From positions 1 to 37,047 of the forward strand of contig JACCWM010000136.1 of NCBI GenBank assembly GCA_013697635.1: a DNA stretch of 37,047 nt, in the 5' to 3' direction. Both the position numbers and the translations under genes were made by a program. A model generated the notes under the pieces. It was given only the letters and a program-made list of their open reading frames with translations. It searched no databases and had not been told where the DNA came from. The DNA is from Lujinxingiaceae bacterium (GTDB lineage Bacteria; Myxococcota_A; Bradymonadia; Bradymonadales; Bradymonadaceae). Positions 19,186-34,826 of this stretch are shown in pieces; the first letter of the stretch is position 1, and every line of letters starts with the position of its first letter.

Positions 19186-21927
19186 ATGAAGTCACGATTG
19201 ACGCGCGTTTTGAGCTTGATGGTTGCACTGTGCCTGTTTTCAGCATGCAGCGATGATTTGGTGCAGAAAAGGCCTTCGGGTTCGCCAGATTCCAGCCACC
19301 AAGACGCCGAGATTGGCTTGTCGGACACGAGCGATGTGATGGCCGACGCCCCCTCGCCAAATGCCTGCGGCGGCCAAGGGGTTTTGCACTTCAACAGCGC
19401 AGCGGCGAACACCGGCGATCCCTGCGGCCCCTGCGGCGACGGCCATCTCAGCTGCGACGGCTTGGATGATTTGCAATGTACGGCAGCGTCCATTGAGCCC
19501 TGCGCGCAGGAACTTTGCGGCGGCGTTGAATGCCAACCCGAAGAGGTTTGCTACGACGGCAACTGCTTCGTCTCCTGCAGCGACGACGGCGAATGCACGC
19601 CGCCCTCGGTCTGCTTCAACAGCATGTGCGTCGAAGACCCCTGCGCAGTTACGAGCTGCGATCCCAACCAGGCCTGCTACGACGGGTCGTGTTTTGACAC
19701 ATGCAACGATGACGGCGATTGCACCCCGCCCTCGATCTGCTTCAACGACAAGTGCGTCGAAGACCCGTGCGTGGTGACGAGCTGTGATCCCACCCAGGCC
19801 TGCTACGTCGGCTCGTGCTTTGACACGTGCAACGACGACGGCGACTGCACGCCGCCCTCGATCTGCTTCAACGCCATGTGCGTCGACGACCCCTGCGTGG
19901 TCACGAGCTGTGATCCCACCCAGGCCTGCTACGTCGGCTCGTGCTTCGACACCTGCAATGACGACGGCGACTGCACGCCGCCCTTGGTCTGCTACAACAA
20001 CATGTGTGTCGGTGGTGATATTATTTGCTTAGATGTTCAGTGCCCGCCCGGATCGACGTGTGTGGCTGGGGACTGTGTCCTGGACGATCCTTGCGATTCG
20101 ATCACCTGTAAAGAAGGCAAGATTTGCCGCGATGGTGCCTGTTTTGATGAGTGCCTGGAGACCGGGTGTCCGGATGGGTCAACCTGTCAGCCAGAAGGGT
20201 GTGTCAAAGATGAGCTCTTACCGCCCGCGCGCTTCATATGCGAAACCGTGGGCACGGTGCTGGTGCTCGACTGGGAGCCATCCCAAACCAGCGACGAGTT
20301 GATTGCCTACCGGGTCTACGAGGTCGTGGATGGGCTTCCTACGGTAGTGCTCGATGAGGTTGACCCGACTCAAACTTCCTATGTGATCAGCGAAGTCGTC
20401 GATGCGTCGGTCTACTATCTGGTCACGGCCGTTTATGCCGTGGGCACGGACGAGGTCGAAAGTGAGCCGTCCAACGTGGGCGGCTGCCTGCCAACCGAGC
20501 CGTCAAATCTTGCTGTTGAGGTAGGTGATCAAGGCGCGGCCCTGGTCTTCGACAACGACTCAGGCCCTGGTATTTTCTTCACCTACTACGCCGTTTATGC
20601 CGCCGGGCGCTTCGATGAACTCGGCCCACAGACCAAGTTTTCCGTGCTCTCGGTCGTATGCGAAGCCGACGCGTTGCAGTGCGGGCTCAGGCTCGAAGGG
20701 CTGTTGCCAGACACTTACTACACGGCCTTTGTCGTGACCCAAAACGACGTCGGCACCTCCAGTGAGCCACCCGTGACGGGCTCCTACGTCGAGTTTTTGA
20801 CGACAAAAGGCAACGTTTCACAGGCGAATCACTGGTTCTTTGGCTCGCGCATAGGACTCGACTTCAGCACCGGTCAACCCGTAGCGGTGACCAGCGCCAT
20901 GGTGACCAGCGGCGGCACAGCGGTCATGTCGGGCCCCGATGGCAAGCTGTTGTTCTACACAAACGGCGGTCCGCCCGGTAATCCGGCGGCGATCTTTGGC
21001 GACGACGACGCGGTCATGTGGCCGATCGTGAGTGGCTGCTCCGAGTCCTTGCAGGCAGCGATCGCCATTCCCTTGCTCGGCCTCGACGATCACTACGTGG
21101 CCTTCACAACCGACTGTGAGGCGAACAGCTTTGTGAATGGATCGCACTACTATGTCGTAGCATTCGAAAAAGAAGACGGTGTCGGGTTCAATCAACAGAG
21201 CGTTAGCGGCAGCGTCAGCGACAGCGGCCGCGGCAGCGTGATCGACTCAGGGCTGGTGGGTCTCGATTTCGGCGGCGCGCTTGCGGCCGTGCGCCATGTA
21301 AACGGTGAGGGTTATTGGATCATCATGTACAGTAACCGCTTCAGCACTTTTCATACCTTCCTTGTGTCGGGCAGCAGTTTCGATCAGGGGAGGCTTGTCT
21401 TGGAGCCCGGTCCAGATTCAACGTTTGATCTGGGTTCCACGGGCCACGCTGCGATGATTCGACTCAGCCCGAACAAATTGCGCCTGGCATTGGCACTGAA
21501 CGACAACGGCTATCTCTTCAACTTCGACCCCTCCACGGGCATCGTCAGCGAACCGGTCGAGTTGCGAATGGAGATTGGCGCCGTGGAGTTTTCCCACGAC
21601 TGCAAATACCTCTATGTCACACGCGCCGAGGACGGCGCCAAGACGGGGTTCAAAGACTTGGTGCGTTTCAATCTTTTGGTTTGGCCCCTCGATGCACAGG
21701 ACTTCGGACGGACCGAAGCGGCAGGCTTCGGGGCCATGCAGCGCGCGCCCGACGGCAATATTTACGTCGCGCGAGACAGCGCCGACGGTTATCTGGGCGC
21801 GATCACGTCGGTGGGCAAGGACCGAGAGGTCTTCCTTGATCATGGATTGCACGTCGAAGGCTACAACGGTGAGCCCGGCCTGCCCAACTTTCCCAGTGAC
21901 ATGGTGGGCGTCTGCAAGACAAAGTGA
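19186..21927 (+). CDS. Large lipoprotein: Cys-rich tandem repeats, FN3-like domains, T9SS-type propeller domain
   Basis: 913 residues. GAGG lies five bases before the ATG; lipobox LFSAC (Cys21). Order: Asp/Ser linker; Cys-rich region about 60-340 with tandem 42-residue units (150-275) rich in SCDPxQACYxGSCFDTCNDDGDC; two fibronectin-III-like domains about 346-545 (DELIAYRVYEV, SYVISEVVDASVYYLVTAVY); then a C-terminal domain from about 548. The last begins NHWFFGSRIGLDFSTGQPVA and continues with GPDGKLLFYTNG. That pattern is familiar from large secreted Bacteroidetes proteins (WYFGNNAGLDFSSG...ISDANGNLLFYTDG), usually a beta-propeller. No Bacteroidetes type-IX sorting tail follows. Probably a surface adhesin or binding protein; the ligand is unknown. 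Confidence 0.85.
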   Translation: MKSRLTRVLSLMVALCLFSACSDDLVQKRPSGSPDSSHQDAEIGLSDTSDVMADAPSPNACGGQGVLHFNSAAANTGDPCGPCGDGHLSCDGLDDLQCTAASIEPCAQELCGGVECQPEEVCYDGNCFVSCSDDGECTPPSVCFNSMCVEDPCAVTSCDPNQACYDGSCFDTCNDDGDCTPPSICFNDKCVEDPCVVTSCDPTQACYVGSCFDTCNDDGDCTPPSICFNAMCVDDPCVVTSCDPTQACYVGSCFDTCNDDGDCTPPLVCYNNMCVGGDIICLDVQCPPGSTCVAGDCVLDDPCDSITCKEGKICRDGACFDECLETGCPDGSTCQPEGCVKDELLPPARFICETVGTVLVLDWEPSQTSDELIAYRVYEVVDGLPTVVLDEVDPTQTSYVISEVVDASVYYLVTAVYAVGTDEVESEPSNVGGCLPTEPSNLAVEVGDQGAALVFDNDSGPGIFFTYYAVYAAGRFDELGPQTKFSVLSVVCEADALQCGLRLEGLLPDTYYTAFVVTQNDVGTSSEPPVTGSYVEFLTTKGNVSQANHWFFGSRIGLDFSTGQPVAVTSAMVTSGGTAVMSGPDGKLLFYTNGGPPGNPAAIFGDDDAVMWPIVSGCSESLQAAIAIPLLGLDDHYVAFTTDCEANSFVNGSHYYVVAFEKEDGVGFNQQSVSGSVSDSGRGSVIDSGLVGLDFGGALAAVRHVNGEGYWIIMYSNRFSTFHTFLVSGSSFDQGRLVLEPGPDSTFDLGSTGHAAMIRLSPNKLRLALALNDNGYLFNFDPSTGIVSEPVELRMEIGAVEFSHDCKYLYVTRAEDGAKTGFKDLVRFNLLVWPLDAQDFGRTEAAGFGAMQRAPDGNIYVARDSADGYLGAITSVGKDREVFLDHGLHVEGYNGEPGLPNFPSDMVGVCKTK
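19633..20010 (+). repeat. Three tandem 126-bp coding repeats
   Basis: Three consecutive units begin at 19633, 19759 and 19885, each encoding 42 residues with the same eight Cys. Units two and three are nearly identical at DNA level, including silent positions (e.g. TGTGATCCCACCCAGGCC in both), so the duplication is recent or homogenised. A diverged, shorter fourth copy precedes them. Confidence 0.9.
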
Positions 21928-21945: not shown

Positions 21946-24132
21946 TCAGGCTTTGACGCTCGCCAGCTGTGCGCGGGCGTGGGCGATGACGCCAGGATTG
22001 TCGTGGGTGAGCCCCCAGGCGGCGATCACGACCGCGTTGAATGCCCAGCGCTCGGCGGTTTGCTCTTCGATGCGCGCCCAGATATGTCCACCGGCGTCCT
22101 CGAATTGTGTGAGCAGGGCGTCGAGGGCATGGTGGCCAAAACAGCCCAAAAAGCCGGCGAAGTCGATTGTCGGGTCGCTCTGGCGAGCTTCGGTCCAATC
22201 CAAGATACCGGTGAGCTGGCCGTCGGCGTTGAGCAGCAGGTGGCCCGGGTGAAGGTCGCCGTGAACGAGCGTGGTGCTGGTGGGCCAGTAGCCGTCCTCG
22301 TCGTCGAGCCAGCTTTGCCAGCGCGTCCAGACGGCCTCGCTCGGGTTGAGCACATGGCGCGTCTGCAGGGCCATGCGCCGCAGTGACTCACGGGCCTCGG
22401 CGATCGATTCGATCGGCAAATCGGCGCGAAGGATCTCGTCGCCCGGGATCGCTTGCAAGGCAACGAGCGCTTTGGCCAATGACTCCAAGAAGACGGCCGA
22501 TGGGCGCTTGGGGTTGATGATGTTCCAGTGAAGCTTGTCGCCCTCAAGGCGCCAGGCCGGCGTTCCGGCCAGGGTGGGGTAGGCGATGGCCTGGCCGGCC
22601 AGCAGTTGGAAGTCGGGAACGGCCACGGGCAGATGCGCGCGCACCAGGCGAAGCGCGCGGGCCTCGACGCGGCTTGCGGCAAAGACATCGGGCCGGCGCG
22701 GTGTGCGCACAATCCAGGGCCTGGCATCAGCGTCCTCGGCGTGAACGACCTTGAAGTCGAGCCCCGAATTGTCGAAATCCGACTGATCACTGGTGAGCTC
22801 GAGGCCGTGCGTGCGCGCGATCTCGAGCAGCTGGTCGACCGTCTCCACCGGCGTGGTGTGGCCAAGCATACTGCGCCAGCGGTCGAGCGCTTCGGCTCGA
22901 GCGCGCAGCTTGAGCGCGGTGCCCGACTCGGTGTGGGTCTCCTCGATGATCCGGGCCACGGCATGCACCTCGCCCAAAATCTGGCCCGCGGTGAAGGGCA
23001 CGAGCAGGGTCTCCTCGCTCATCGATTCATCTTGCGCAGCGATCAAGAGCTTGCGAAGGCCTAAAACGTCGTCGGGGTTGTGGGCGCTGAGCTGAATCGC
23101 GTCGGGCAAATCGCGCGCCAAGATGCGAGGCGTCACGTCGTCGAGGCGGTCGGCCTTGTTCAAGATGATCTTCGAGGGGATCTTCGAGGCCCCAATCGCA
23201 TAGATCGTCTCCTGGGTCAGCGCGAGCTGGCTTCGCCAGTCCGGATCGGAGGCGTCGACCACAAAAAGCAAGAAGCGTGCGTCCTTGGCCTCGTCAAGCG
23301 TGGAGCGAAACGAGGCGACAAGCTCGGTGGGCAGATTCTTGATGAAGCCCACCGTATCGGAGACCAGGATCTGCGGCGTCACCTGCGGTGAGAGCTGGCG
23401 CACGGTGGTGCCAAGGGTTGCAAAGAGCTTGTCTTCGACGAGCACTTCGCTTCCGGTGAGCGCGCGCATCAGCGAGGACTTGCCGGCGTTGGTGTAGCCG
23501 ACCAGAGCGACCTGAAAGGTCTCGCGGCGTCGCTCCCTGCGCACGGCCTCAGTGGCTTGCACCTCGGCCAGCTCACGTTTGAGCGCAGCGCGTCGATCGC
23601 GACGCTGTTGCTTGGAGAGCTCGAGGCCTGTGTGGCCGCGGCCGCCGCGGCCGCCGCCACCGCCGCCATCACCACCGGAGCCGGCGTGCTCATCGCGCAG
23701 CTTGGGCATCTCGTATTGCAAGCGCGCGATCTCGATCTCGAGGTGGGCCTCACGCGTTTGGGCGCGCTCCTCGAAGATGCGCAGGATCACGGCCGTGCGA
23801 TCGAAGACCTCGACCTCGAGCTCGCGCTCGAGGTTGCGCTGTTGCGAGCGGCTCAGCTCGCCGTCGACGAGCACGATGTCGATCCCTTCGAGCAGGCTCT
23901 CCTTGATCTCGGCGATTTTTCCCGGTCCAAGATAGGTCGACGAGGTGGTCTTCGAGCGCTTTTGAATCTCGCAGCCGACGATCTCAATTCCCAGCGTTGC
24001 GGCCAGGCGCTCGAGCTCGATGCACGATGACTCGACCTCGGACTCGGATTCGCGCGGCCGCTGCACGGCGACGATCAGAGCGCGGGGGCGCTGATTGGGG
24101 TGATTGGACTTGGGTTCTTTATATTCTGGCAC
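21946..24132 (-). CDS. HflX GTPase fused to macrolide 2'-phosphotransferase
   Basis: 728 residues. Residues 1-420 are HflX: N-terminal domain with YLGPGKIAEIKE and LSRSQQRNLERELEVEVFDRT; G1 GYTNAGKS (212-219); G2 FATLGTTVR; G3 DTVGFI (259-264); G4 NKAD (325-328); G5 SA (349-350). HflX splits or rescues stalled 70S ribosomes. The conserved GPGETQLE loop is replaced by a Gly/Arg-rich run (151-166). Residues 427-728 are a complete Mph-type aminoglycoside/macrolide kinase: NSGLDFKVV, WIVRTPRRPDVFA, LPVAVPDF, catalytic HGDLHPGH (624-631, Asp626, His in place of Asn as in MphA) and ILDWTEAR (Asp645). MphA-like enzymes phosphorylate the macrolide 2'-OH using GTP. No stop or frameshift separates the parts. 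The start is a GTG four bases after GGAGG. Domain identities are firm; the joint function is inference. Confidence 0.93.
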   Translation of the reverse strand: MPEYKEPKSNHPNQRPRALIVAVQRPRESESEVESSCIELERLAATLGIEIVGCEIQKRSKTTSSTYLGPGKIAEIKESLLEGIDIVLVDGELSRSQQRNLERELEVEVFDRTAVILRIFEERAQTREAHLEIEIARLQYEMPKLRDEHAGSGGDGGGGGGRGGRGHTGLELSKQQRRDRRAALKRELAEVQATEAVRRERRRETFQVALVGYTNAGKSSLMRALTGSEVLVEDKLFATLGTTVRQLSPQVTPQILVSDTVGFIKNLPTELVASFRSTLDEAKDARFLLFVVDASDPDWRSQLALTQETIYAIGASKIPSKIILNKADRLDDVTPRILARDLPDAIQLSAHNPDDVLGLRKLLIAAQDESMSEETLLVPFTAGQILGEVHAVARIIEETHTESGTALKLRARAEALDRWRSMLGHTTPVETVDQLLEIARTHGLELTSDQSDFDNSGLDFKVVHAEDADARPWIVRTPRRPDVFAASRVEARALRLVRAHLPVAVPDFQLLAGQAIAYPTLAGTPAWRLEGDKLHWNIINPKRPSAVFLESLAKALVALQAIPGDEILRADLPIESIAEARESLRRMALQTRHVLNPSEAVWTRWQSWLDDEDGYWPTSTTLVHGDLHPGHLLLNADGQLTGILDWTEARQSDPTIDFAGFLGCFGHHALDALLTQFEDAGGHIWARIEEQTAERWAFNAVVIAAWGLTHDNPGVIAHARAQLASVKA

Positions 24133-24148
24133 AAGGCCTCCAGTGGAC

Positions 24149-24163
24149 TATCGGTGTCCGATA
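24149..24163. promoter_or_regulatory. Perfect inverted repeat before hflX-mph (candidate operator)
   Basis: TATCGG-TGT-CCGATA lies 16 bases upstream of the GTG start, just before the GGAGG ribosome site. On the minus strand the arm is preceded by TTT, so it may overlap a -10. The position suits an operator for a small repressor or a hairpin controlling translation of the fusion. The divergent hydrolase starts about 205 bases away. Confidence 0.4.
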
Positions 24164-24212
24164 AAAGACCCCGTTCACGAGCGCAGATTCTATGGGAGTG
24201 TCGCTCGATGCA

Positions 24213-24234
24213 TGAACGCGAGAAGCGCGGTTCA
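24213..24234. promoter_or_regulatory. Imperfect inverted repeat in the divergent intergenic region
   Basis: TGAACGCG and CGCGGTTCA can pair with one bulged base around a short AGAAG loop, about 80 bases upstream of hflX-mph and 135 bases before the hydrolase. The rest of the 237-base gap shows no further recognisable element. Confidence 0.2.
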
Positions 24235-24369
24235 TCGTCAGAACGAAGGGCATCGAGCCAACCCAGAATTAGCGCGCCCGGCCGAGAGCGTCAAGTCTGC
24301 CCGGCCTTGCAAAACGCGCGTGGCCCGTGCAAAGCTGCGCCCGCACTCTCAAAACGGAGGAACACAACG

Positions 24370-25316: not shown

Positions 25317-27110
25317 CTAGATGCGGCCCTTGCGCGCGCACACCACCGTCACGCCCGCGAGCACGAGCACGATCAGCACGACCGGGGCCAGCGGCGCGAG
25401 CGGCGAGTCCGAGCTGGTGATGCTGCAGCCGCCGGCTGCGGCAGCGGGCTTGGCTGGCTCGCGCACCGTGATCGCACCCTTCATGTAGGGATGCGGCGCA
25501 CACATGTACTTGTAGTCGCCGGCCTTGGTGAAGGTGAAGCTGTCACTCTCGGCGTGCGCCAGCAAATTGGTGGCGAAGCGCTCCGGGCCCTCGATGCCTA
25601 CGGCGTTGTGAATGCCCGAGAACTCGCCGGCCATGTAGGTGAAGACGTCCTCGTTTTGCCAGGTGACCTTGGTGCCCGGCGCAATCTCGATCACCTTGGG
25701 GTGATAGGAGTTGCCGATGATCTTGACGAACACCTCTTTGGTCTCGGGACCATAGACCACAGGCTTGTCCACCGGCGAGTTGCCGATGTCGAACGGCGAG
25801 ATCGTGCGCACGGCCTTGGCAGCCATCTCCTTGATCTCGGCCTCGGTGAACTTGGGCCCGTCCGCGAGGATGGTCCTGGGCGTCTGGGCCTTGGCGTCGG
25901 CCACGAGCACGCCGATCGCTCCGCGAGCGGTCGAGCCCACGGCATGCGAGAGCATCAGATAGGCACCCTCATCGGGCGGAACTCGAAACTCGATCACCCA
26001 GGTGTCCGACGGGCCCGCCGTGACCGACTGTCCGCCTTGCATCATGGCGTTGGGATTGCCCTGCCAGTACACGTAGTCCCAGATGATGCCCACGATGTGA
26101 AAGGTCGAGGTCAGGTTGGGGCCGATGTTCAAAAAGTTGATGCGCACGTAGTCGCCCGGCTTGGCCACGATCGGCTCCTCGACGTAGCGAAAGAGCTTGC
26201 CGTTGAAGGCCGTGTACATCGGCTTGCCCTCGATCGCGTCGCGCCCGCTCGCGTAGAACTCGTGCTGAATCAAATACAGGTTGATGTCGGGTGGGTGGCC
26301 GAGCTCCTCCTCGAGCTTGTACTTTTGCTTGGGCTCGACGACGATCATGCCGTACTGGCCAAAGAGCACGTGCATCGGGATGGCGTGACCACCGGGCGCG
26401 CAGTGATACATGTAGACACCGGGCGTGTTCGCCCGAAAGACCACGCTCTTGGTTTCACCCGGCGCGATATTGCCCACGTACTTCGAGGTCTGGGTGTAGG
26501 CGGCGTGAATCGAGGCGCCGTGGGGCACGGTGCCGGCGTTGGTGATCTTCATCTCGACGATGTCGCCCTCTTGCACCACGATCGTCTGGCCTGGAACACT
26601 GCCGTCGATCAAGAAGCCGTTATACATCACGCCCTGGCCGATGTAGGTCTGGCCCTCGTTGAGCACCACGGTGAAGCTCTTGTCAGGCGTGGTATCCTGA
26701 GGCACGAAGCTGGTCGCCGGGATCGACAGCGCCTCGTCGCGCCGGATGATGTCGATGAACTCGGCCCCCTCGAAGATCGGATTGAGGGTGTCGGCCGACA
26801 CCTTGGCGCCAGCAACCGACACCGGTCGTGCCGCGGCCACCGGGCGTGGCGTGGCCTGGGCGAGCACCTGACCTTGGACCGTGGCCTGGGCCAGGGCATC
26901 CTCGGGTAGCTCACGCAGCGGCAAGCCGCGCTGATTCTCCATCGCGTTGCGAATGTCCTTTCCGGCCAGGGTCTCGCCGCGCTCGGCTAAGATCTGACGC
27001 TCCATCGCGTTGTTGCAAGCATCGCAGGCATCGGCCTGCGGTACCTGCAGTGAATAGACGGCCACGGCGCCTGCCATCATAGCCACAATTTTTCCAAACC
27101 TGGTACTCAT
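25317..27110 (-). CDS. NirK-like multicopper protein with extra cupredoxin domain and C-terminal anchor
   Basis: 597 residues; GGAGG lies about six bases before the ATG. Signal peptide to about ADA28, then a CDAC motif and an Ala/Gln-rich segment. Residues 140-405 are two cupredoxin domains of copper nitrite reductase type. Aligned by eye to AcNiR: type-1 His197, Cys237, His247; type-2 His202, His236, His389; second-sphere His338 in STFHIVG. Two key positions differ: the catalytic Asp98 equivalent is Ser200 and the axial Met150 equivalent is Gln252. The Cys-to-His loop is one residue longer. Residues 455-550 form a third, plastocyanin-like domain with CAPHPYM (Cys537, His540, Met543) and His501. 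The tail GGCSITSSD, a hydrophobic helix, then ARKGRI resembles MYXO-CTERM sorting signals. Nitrite reduction is possible but doubtful. Confidence 0.85.
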   Translation of the reverse strand: MSTRFGKIVAMMAGAVAVYSLQVPQADACDACNNAMERQILAERGETLAGKDIRNAMENQRGLPLRELPEDALAQATVQGQVLAQATPRPVAAARPVSVAGAKVSADTLNPIFEGAEFIDIIRRDEALSIPATSFVPQDTTPDKSFTVVLNEGQTYIGQGVMYNGFLIDGSVPGQTIVVQEGDIVEMKITNAGTVPHGASIHAAYTQTSKYVGNIAPGETKSVVFRANTPGVYMYHCAPGGHAIPMHVLFGQYGMIVVEPKQKYKLEEELGHPPDINLYLIQHEFYASGRDAIEGKPMYTAFNGKLFRYVEEPIVAKPGDYVRINFLNIGPNLTSTFHIVGIIWDYVYWQGNPNAMMQGGQSVTAGPSDTWVIEFRVPPDEGAYLMLSHAVGSTARGAIGVLVADAKAQTPRTILADGPKFTEAEIKEMAAKAVRTISPFDIGNSPVDKPVVYGPETKEVFVKIIGNSYHPKVIEIAPGTKVTWQNEDVFTYMAGEFSGIHNAVGIEGPERFATNLLAHAESDSFTFTKAGDYKYMCAPHPYMKGAITVREPAKPAAAAGGCSITSSDSPLAPLAPVVLIVLVLAGVTVVCARKGRI

Positions 27111-27141
27111 GAGCACCTCCACTGGAGTTGAGTTGCGAGAA

Positions 27142-27155
27142 GTGAAGCAAATCAC
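27142..27155. promoter_or_regulatory. CRP/FNR-family-like site upstream of nirK-like gene
   Basis: GTGA-N6-TCAC symmetry (minus strand GTGATTTGCTTCAC) centred about 38 bases before the start codon. It matches the CRP half-site better than the FNR TTGAT half-site. The distance implies the site overlaps the promoter or leader, so repression or a nearby start would be expected. Confidence 0.3.
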
Positions 27156-33773: not shown

Positions 33774-34721
33774 TCAACGGTTGCCGGCCGGGCGTGGGGG
33801 CAGGGAGGTGAGGTAGAGCCAGAGCGCGGTGAGGTCTTCGTCGCTCGACTGGCTGATGAACTCCCAGGGCATGAAATCGGCGCGCAGCTCCTGGCCGCCC
33901 GGCGTCTTGCCGCTGCGAAGGGTGTTGATGAAGTCGGCCTCGCTCCAGCTGGCCAGCCCGCTGGCGTGCGGGGTCAGGTTGGGGGCGATCGGCCAGCTTG
34001 GCGGAACGCCGGGGATCTTGCCGCCGCTGAGACCCTCACCGTGGCAGCCGGTGCAGCCGGTGATCAGGTACTTGCCGTATTCGGCGCTGGCGGCAGGCAC
34101 GGGCCTGGCCGGCTGCAGCCCGTGGTCGATCAACTCGGCCGCAAGCAGCGGCAGCTCACCGGTCAGATACAAAATGCGGCCGAGCGGGCCAACCGCGCTC
34201 TGGCCGTGGTCGACCTGGGCGACGGCGGGCAGGCTGCGAATATAGGCCACGAGCGCGCCCAGATCCTCGTTGCTCAACTCGATCCACTCGTAGGAGGGCA
34301 TGAACAACAGCGGGCGACCGCTGGGGGCAATGCCGTGGCGCACGGCGCGCGCCCAGTCCTCGTCGGTGTAGGTGGCGGCCAGGCCACCCTGGGTCAGATT
34401 CGCTGCGACCAGGCGCATCACCGGCATTTCGTCGAGGAAGACCTTGCCGGAGAGATCCAGGCCGTGGCAATCCGCGCAGCCGCGAAAGATCGCAACGGCC
34501 TTGCCGCGCGCGATCACCTCGGCGCCCTCGGGAACGGAGTAGGCGACCGGCTTGACGTCCCAAATCTGGGTCATGTGCTTGCTGCTGACGGCATAGACCG
34601 CGCCGATGGCCACGCCGAGCAAGGTGACAAATACCGCGAGCACGGTGAGCAGGATTCGTGGCCAGCGGCGACGTCCAGAAGGTTTAGGTTTTTCAACGAC
34701 TTGAGGTGCTTTTGTGTCCAT
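33774..34721 (-). CDS. Membrane-anchored dihaem cytochrome c
   Basis: 315 residues from MDTKAPQ; CGGAG seven bases upstream excludes the longer frame. Residues 20-45 form one N-terminal transmembrane anchor after a basic stretch, so the haem domains lie in the periplasm. Two class-I cytochrome c domains: CADCH (82-86) and CTGCH (223-227). Candidate axial Met residues are Met141 (FMPSYEW) and the Met of DFMPWEF near residue 295. The layout resembles electron-donor dihaem c subunits of oxidases or dehydrogenases, but no partner oxidase gene lies nearby. It is divergent from the LysR gene, which may control it. Donation to the NirK-like copper protein seven kilobases away is conceivable but unsupported. 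Confidence 0.9.
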   Translation of the reverse strand: MDTKAPQVVEKPKPSGRRRWPRILLTVLAVFVTLLGVAIGAVYAVSSKHMTQIWDVKPVAYSVPEGAEVIARGKAVAIFRGCADCHGLDLSGKVFLDEMPVMRLVAANLTQGGLAATYTDEDWARAVRHGIAPSGRPLLFMPSYEWIELSNEDLGALVAYIRSLPAVAQVDHGQSAVGPLGRILYLTGELPLLAAELIDHGLQPARPVPAASAEYGKYLITGCTGCHGEGLSGGKIPGVPPSWPIAPNLTPHASGLASWSEADFINTLRSGKTPGGQELRADFMPWEFISQSSDEDLTALWLYLTSLPPRPAGNR

Positions 34722-34799
34722 TCGTTTCTCCGGGGGATGGCCCTGAACTGCGTTGAGAGTGAGCAAGTCGAAGTTGACAGCCACTCCGGCCGCGGGCAA

Positions 34800-34826
34800 T
34801 GAACAAAAATGCACACCACCTGTTCA
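34800..34826. promoter_or_regulatory. Inverted repeat in the cytochrome/lysR intergenic region (candidate LysR site)
   Basis: TGAACA-N15-TGTTCA has perfect six-base arms in the 133-base gap between divergent genes, 29 bases before the LysR start. LysR proteins typically bind such interrupted dyads between themselves and a divergent target. A consensus TTGACA at 34774 could be a -35 for lysR, but the matching -10 (CAATGA at 17 bases) is poor. Confidence 0.35.

Follow-up and report, generated by a model that had tools for sequence, protein, structure and literature searches.

The window, by which we mean the whole 37,047-nt stretch of DNA analysed here, carries a gene on its minus strand (21946–24132) in which a complete HflX-type GTPase is joined to a complete Mph-type macrolide 2'-phosphotransferase. 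The gene forms a single unbroken frame of 728 codons plus stop, starts with GTG and is preceded by a GGAGG Shine-Dalgarno sequence. The HflX portion (residues ~17–420) comprises the N-terminal domain (PF13167, GTP-bdg_N, residues 35–120, 23773–24030), the middle helical domain with its Gly-rich HD loop (PF16360, GTP-bdg_M, residues 123–202, 23527–23766) and the GTPase domain (PF01926, MMR_HSR1, residues 207–326, 23155–23514) with the motifs G1 (GYTNAGKSS), G3 (DTVGF) and G4 (NKAD). These are followed by a C-terminal HflX domain (residues ~372–412, 22897–23019). A linker of about ten residues (~421–431) leads into the kinase portion (residues 431–725, 21958–22842; Pfam APH at 455–689), in which the catalytic Asp626, part of the HGD of HGDLHPGH, is encoded at 22255–22257 (residue roles from PMC5760710). 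All Pfam matches exceed their cut-offs. The NCBIfam profile TIGR03156 (GTP_HflX) matches residues 17–363 with 334 bits (cut-off 217), the Mph(E)/(G) profile matches residues 434–723 (E = 1.6e-62), and a PDB sequence search returned both HflX (E = 3e-74) and Mph (E = 1e-57). The AlphaFold2 model of the fusion has a mean pLDDT of 85, with about 80 for the linker block 421–430 and a disordered HD loop (residues ~147–166). In Foldseek searches with this model, the top matches were ribosome structures of Listeria HflXr for the N-terminal half and Mph structures for the C-terminal half. An uninterrupted fusion of an HflX with all G motifs to an Mph-type kinase with intact motifs, as first proposed from the letters of the sequence, is thus borne out. 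The junction, which had been placed at base 22850, was likewise confirmed with a small correction, the linker covering ~22840–22872. An internal start that would release free Mph was considered and rejected, as the other fusions do not conserve M422, which by eye also lacks a Shine-Dalgarno sequence.

Other genes of the window encode a multicopper oxidase/cupredoxin protein whose C-terminal tail resembles a surface-sorting signal (25317–27155, minus strand) and a cytochrome c (33774–34814, minus strand); this suggests an enzyme of the copper nitrite reductase type. A secreted protein of 913 residues, rich in Cys and containing near-identical tandem repeats (PCVVTSCDPTQACYVGSCFDTCNDDGDC), is encoded at 19186–21927 on the plus strand and matched no Pfam family.

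The HflX-Mph fusion is present in 16 genomes from three lineages of the Myxococcota, namely the Bradymonadales, Nannocystis and a further family (f42), several of them closed. In the window's own family it was found in 8 of 21 sampled genomes (the window genome G000 as well as G005, G010, G011, G012, G014, G017 and G019), with the copy of G017 being incomplete as it extends past the contig end. Family f42 contributes two genomes of one to two contigs (G200, G356) and Nannocystis six, one of which is a complete chromosome. The other fusions are 40–56% identical to the window protein along their length, and gaps at the junction are confined to two residues in the degenerate copy of G005. For close pairs, dN/dS ratios of 0.06–0.49 (HflX half) and 0.24–0.50 (Mph half) indicate purifying selection on both halves. 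Together, the occurrence in 16 genomes, the ungapped junction and the dN/dS ratios exclude chance, misassembly and a recent accident as origin of the fusion. Homologues with the two genes always apart would have spoken against the original prediction; instead, 15 other genomes, some of them closed, carry the two as a fusion. No fusion was seen outside the Myxococcota in a non-exhaustive search of 397 Bacillales genomes and the best 80 of 128 Mph relatives sharing two peptide patterns, and no plasmid record covered 80% of the fusion at a single location.

To which HflX paralogue the N-terminal half belongs was addressed with quick trees, for which all support values given here are SH-aLRT only. 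The window genome also encodes a housekeeping HflX (G000:C195), so that the fused HflX represents a second paralogue. In the tree, fused HflX falls within a Myxococcota HflX2 clade (support 100). This clade and that of the Bacillales HflXr lie on one side of a branch with support 96, with the housekeeping HflX of Myxococcota, Bacillales and E. coli all on the opposite side. The Bacillales proteins can be identified as HflXr, because they score 495 bits against Listeria HflXr compared to 268 bits against the next HflX. A housekeeping HflX with an accidental tail was rejected on the basis of the tree and the separate housekeeping copy in the genome. Two Nannocystis genomes (G379, G380) even possess three HflX proteins, i.e. 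the housekeeping protein, a free HflX2 and the fusion; G380 additionally encodes a free Mph. The HD loop, estimated by eye, has about 19 residues in the window protein and 17 in most fusions; that of E. coli HflX has 17 and that of Listeria HflXr 20. By its sequence, the N-terminal half is an HflXr-like paralogue, which, as a resistance-type HflX, would act by splitting ribosomes.

With regard to the C-terminal half, D626, H631 and D645 of the window protein align with Glu196, His201 and Asp214 of MphH, the catalytic residues of that enzyme, of which the first is Asp in most Mph proteins (PMC5760710, PMC6109786). Y518 aligns with the hinge tyrosine that is altered in the Mph(B) Y92M structure. 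Eight NCBIfam Mph profiles match with 170–212 bits, compared to 25 bits for the next APH-type profile. The fused kinase half shows 35–41% identity to characterised Mph and reaches none of the NCBIfam allele-level cut-offs of known Mph. In the Mph tree, the fused domains and the free Mph of Polyangium, Sorangium and Nannocystis form one Myxococcota clade (support 99), apart from the Bacillales enzymes. Mph enzymes modify the macrolide 2'-OH using GTP (PMC6109786), and the kinase half would do the same.

At 15 of the 16 fusions, the upstream region contains a short leader ORF with RLR-stop at its end, a feature that was not part of the original prediction; the window copy is the exception. Macrolide-sensing leader peptides, among them those of erm genes, carry this motif. 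RLR is described as their signature in macrolide resistance and is the motif of the leader that controls Listeria hflXr (PMC6310831). The Nannocystis leaders read MFAFIRLR, MVAFIRLR, MVFFIRLR and MAMFIRLR. In the window's family we found MWTLLYARLR (G014), MRKFCFYIRLR (G019), MIDxFHIRLR (G010–G012), MWISHYIRLR (G017) and MFILCLVRLR (G005), and in family f42 MFDLVLKFLRLR (G356) and an ORF with a GTG start whose last residues are KSLRLR (G200). Searching 1.85 Mb of strand with the pattern ATG-(2 to 12 codons)-RLR-stop gave 43 matches, 41 of which precede a fused gene, HflX2 or mph in the same orientation (31 distinct places once duplicate loci are removed) and two elsewhere; around housekeeping hflX there were none in 223 kb. 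Besides the fusions, several genes for free HflX2 and many for free Mph carry such leaders. As a side observation, free mph genes with upstream ORFs ending in RLR were seen at 18 loci, in Myxococcota, Paenibacillus, Brevibacillus, Cohnella and a Sericytochromatia MAG, and the RLR-ending ORF is apparently a widespread macrolide-sensing leader for mph. In the Nannocystis fusions, whose 5' regions are 94% identical, the Shine-Dalgarno sequence is predicted to pair with CTTCC, a pairing that, as a prediction only, resembles translational attenuation; for covariation these sequences are too similar, with only three pairs changed on both sides. Overall, the RLR leaders point to macrolide-sensing attenuation in the Myxococcota.

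Upstream of the window gene, no RLR leader was found within 800 nt when ATG, GTG and TTG starts were searched, and an upstream ORF containing RVR and RAR was judged to be due to chance because it lacks a Shine-Dalgarno sequence. Instead of such a peptide, the 5' leader (24133–24258) contains a hairpin, and its Shine-Dalgarno sequence is predicted to be covered by pairing; the fold z-score of the hairpin region is −1.9. A promoter-like TTGACG-N17-TAATTC element, recognised by eye as a consensus match only, is located at 24263–24291. A 44-residue ORF (MPFVLTMNRASR..., 24128–24246, minus strand) spans the hairpin pairing over the Shine-Dalgarno sequence and overlaps the fusion start. ORF and hairpin could possibly constitute another type of control that replaces the RLR leader. 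The window gene may have lost its leader and be constitutive, or may use another signal. The window contains no Rfam match.

Unfused counterparts exist in the Bacillales: Rossellomorea, Bacillus pakistanensis and two Oceanobacillus species each have an hflXr-type gene immediately 5' of an mph gene that runs in the same direction. Three of these four pairs carry an RLR leader (MATIRLRFRALNH, MATIRLRIQGLNN); none was seen at the pair of O. massiliensis. In Rossellomorea (L122:2260–2680), the RLR ORF is followed by two hairpins with T runs, an arrangement that resembles transcription attenuation. The Mph proteins of the Bacillales pairs are not near the fused Mph in the tree, which implies that HflXr and Mph functions have been united more than once.

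Decay and loss of the kinase half are also documented. The fusion of G005 (L018:1429–3582) has retained an intact HflX half and its RLR leader, with a kinase half that is degenerate (HGAW for HGDL, DGWG for DWTE, N lobe partly gone). In G001 and G002, an HflX of the same type stops at the junction and the kinase half is absent. Hence, the HflX half is able to persist alone. All other complete fusions have kept the catalytic residues. A single clade of fused HflX is rejected by the AU test (p = 0.0005), which rules out one fusion event kept unchanged, whereas a single clade of fused Mph is not rejected (p = 0.13). The trees require a minimum of three to four changes by fusion or fission, which may reflect an early fusion followed by fissions or several fusion events.

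In conclusion, the fusion very probably confers macrolide resistance through two activities and is inducible in the relatives, and a dedicated resistance protein of this kind, under leader control in those relatives, is the explanation of the data as a whole that we hold with good confidence. Hereby, the N-terminal half would use GTP to split ribosomes idled by macrolides, and the C-terminal half would inactivate the drug by GTP-dependent 2'-phosphorylation. In the relatives, a macrolide-bound ribosome would stall at the RLR leader peptide and relieve the downstream RNA structure, whereupon both activities would be produced together when needed. With the released drug phosphorylated, the freed 50S subunit would be re-poisoned less often. 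The original prediction had the fusion strip macrolide-stalled ribosomes and modify the drug on the spot. The macrolide role in this reading is strongly supported, because RLR leaders precede 15 of 16 fusions, hflXr-mph pairs exist in Bacillales and the HflX half lies beside HflXr in the tree. Against a dedicated resistance protein with two activities stand the window copy without RLR leader, the dead kinase half of G005 and its absence in G001 and G002, and an HD loop that cannot be assigned clearly to the longer HflXr type.

Regarding the on-the-spot part, one may tentatively picture a macrolide-induced, coupled machine, in which HflX acting on a ribosome with bound drug would set the macrolide free for phosphorylation by the tethered kinase before rebinding, so that the fusion would protect more than the separate proteins; we consider this possible, although we would not favour it. 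HflX does not bind ribosomes bearing peptidyl-tRNA, and macrolides promote drop-off, which yields ribosomes that HflX can split (PMC12493154). Drug and HflX have been seen together on the 50S subunit in structures, with the need for splitting in resistance being described as unclear (PMC12493154). In any case, splitting of the ribosome and inactivation of the drug need not be physically coupled, because a relative with a dead kinase and unfused relatives exist. Nearly even chances can be given to the simpler view that the two halves act independently in macrolide resistance, with the link fixing their ratio and no handover taking place at the ribosome. The separate adjacent genes in Bacillales, the unfused Mph and HflX2 genes behind RLR leaders in Myxococcota and the loss of the kinase half all fit such plain co-expression, whereas the retention of the fusion across deep divergence, with a short, ungapped linker of low variation, argues against it without being proof of coupling.

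The remaining alternatives appear far less probable. The Mph domain could sense macrolides and thereby steer HflX, with phosphorylation being secondary or absent, as might be suggested by the degenerate-kinase fusion of G005 that persists behind an RLR leader. This is unlikely, since the catalytic residues are kept in all other complete fusions, and the G005 protein also lacks segments of the nucleotide and drug pockets, which fits decay better than sensing. That the kinase half acts on another substrate, such as a different antibiotic or a ribosomal component, would be in keeping with the diversity of APH-fold enzymes, the moderate identity to characterised Mph and the unreached allele-level cut-offs. 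The full-length Mph profile match far above other APH families, the Mph structures as top fold matches and the macrolide-arrest motif of the leaders nevertheless make it an improbable reading. An assembly or annotation artefact, i.e. two genes joined through a sequencing error, could be suspected in view of the window genome being a draft of 213 contigs; with the fusion and an identical junction in 15 other genomes, some closed, it was rejected for the family, and its probability is negligible. Returning to the dedicated resistance protein, the fusion and the Bacillales hflXr-mph pairs name a drug-inactivating partner for HflX. The natural fusion moreover makes the question of HflX in resistance testable with one gene and few point mutants, and the RLR leader provides a simple sequence tag for finding more macrolide resistance genes.

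In line with the original prediction, which knew of no such architecture, no description of an HflX-Mph fusion was found in the openly available journal articles that our search covered, and the papers on Mph evolution and resistomes that we examined do not mention HflX. An HflX from a sediment metagenome raised the erythromycin MIC in a functional screen, which favours the resistance role, in a study that treats HflX and macrolide phosphotransferase as separate genes (PMC5776109). Listeria HflXr (lmo0762; PMC6310831), whose authors supposed that it may act with a second, drug-removing partner, resembles the fusion in being a second HflX paralogue beside the housekeeping one, in the RLR leader shared with the window's relatives, as top Foldseek match and in its side of the tree. 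It differs in that it is an HflX alone, without kinase, to which the fused HflX is about 35% identical, and in the leader that the window copy lacks. The kinase half shares with Mph(A), (B), (E) and (H) the whole domain, the catalytic Asp/His/Asp, the hinge Tyr and the fold; the known enzymes are, however, free single-domain proteins, whereas the fused Mph is the C-terminal half of a GTPase and belongs to a separate Myxococcota clade. The Bacillales hflXr-mph pairs match the fusion in gene order, with the HflXr-type gene 5' of mph on one strand and mostly behind an RLR leader, but consist of two genes with an Mph from a different region of the tree. Similarly, the msr(E)-mph(E) cassette (PMC5776109) combines a ribosome-protecting factor with a macrolide kinase; here, the factor is an ABC-F protein, and the genes are separate and mobile. 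Compared to these systems, the architecture of the fusion is new, conserved and mostly leader-regulated, and its two resistance activities are already known.
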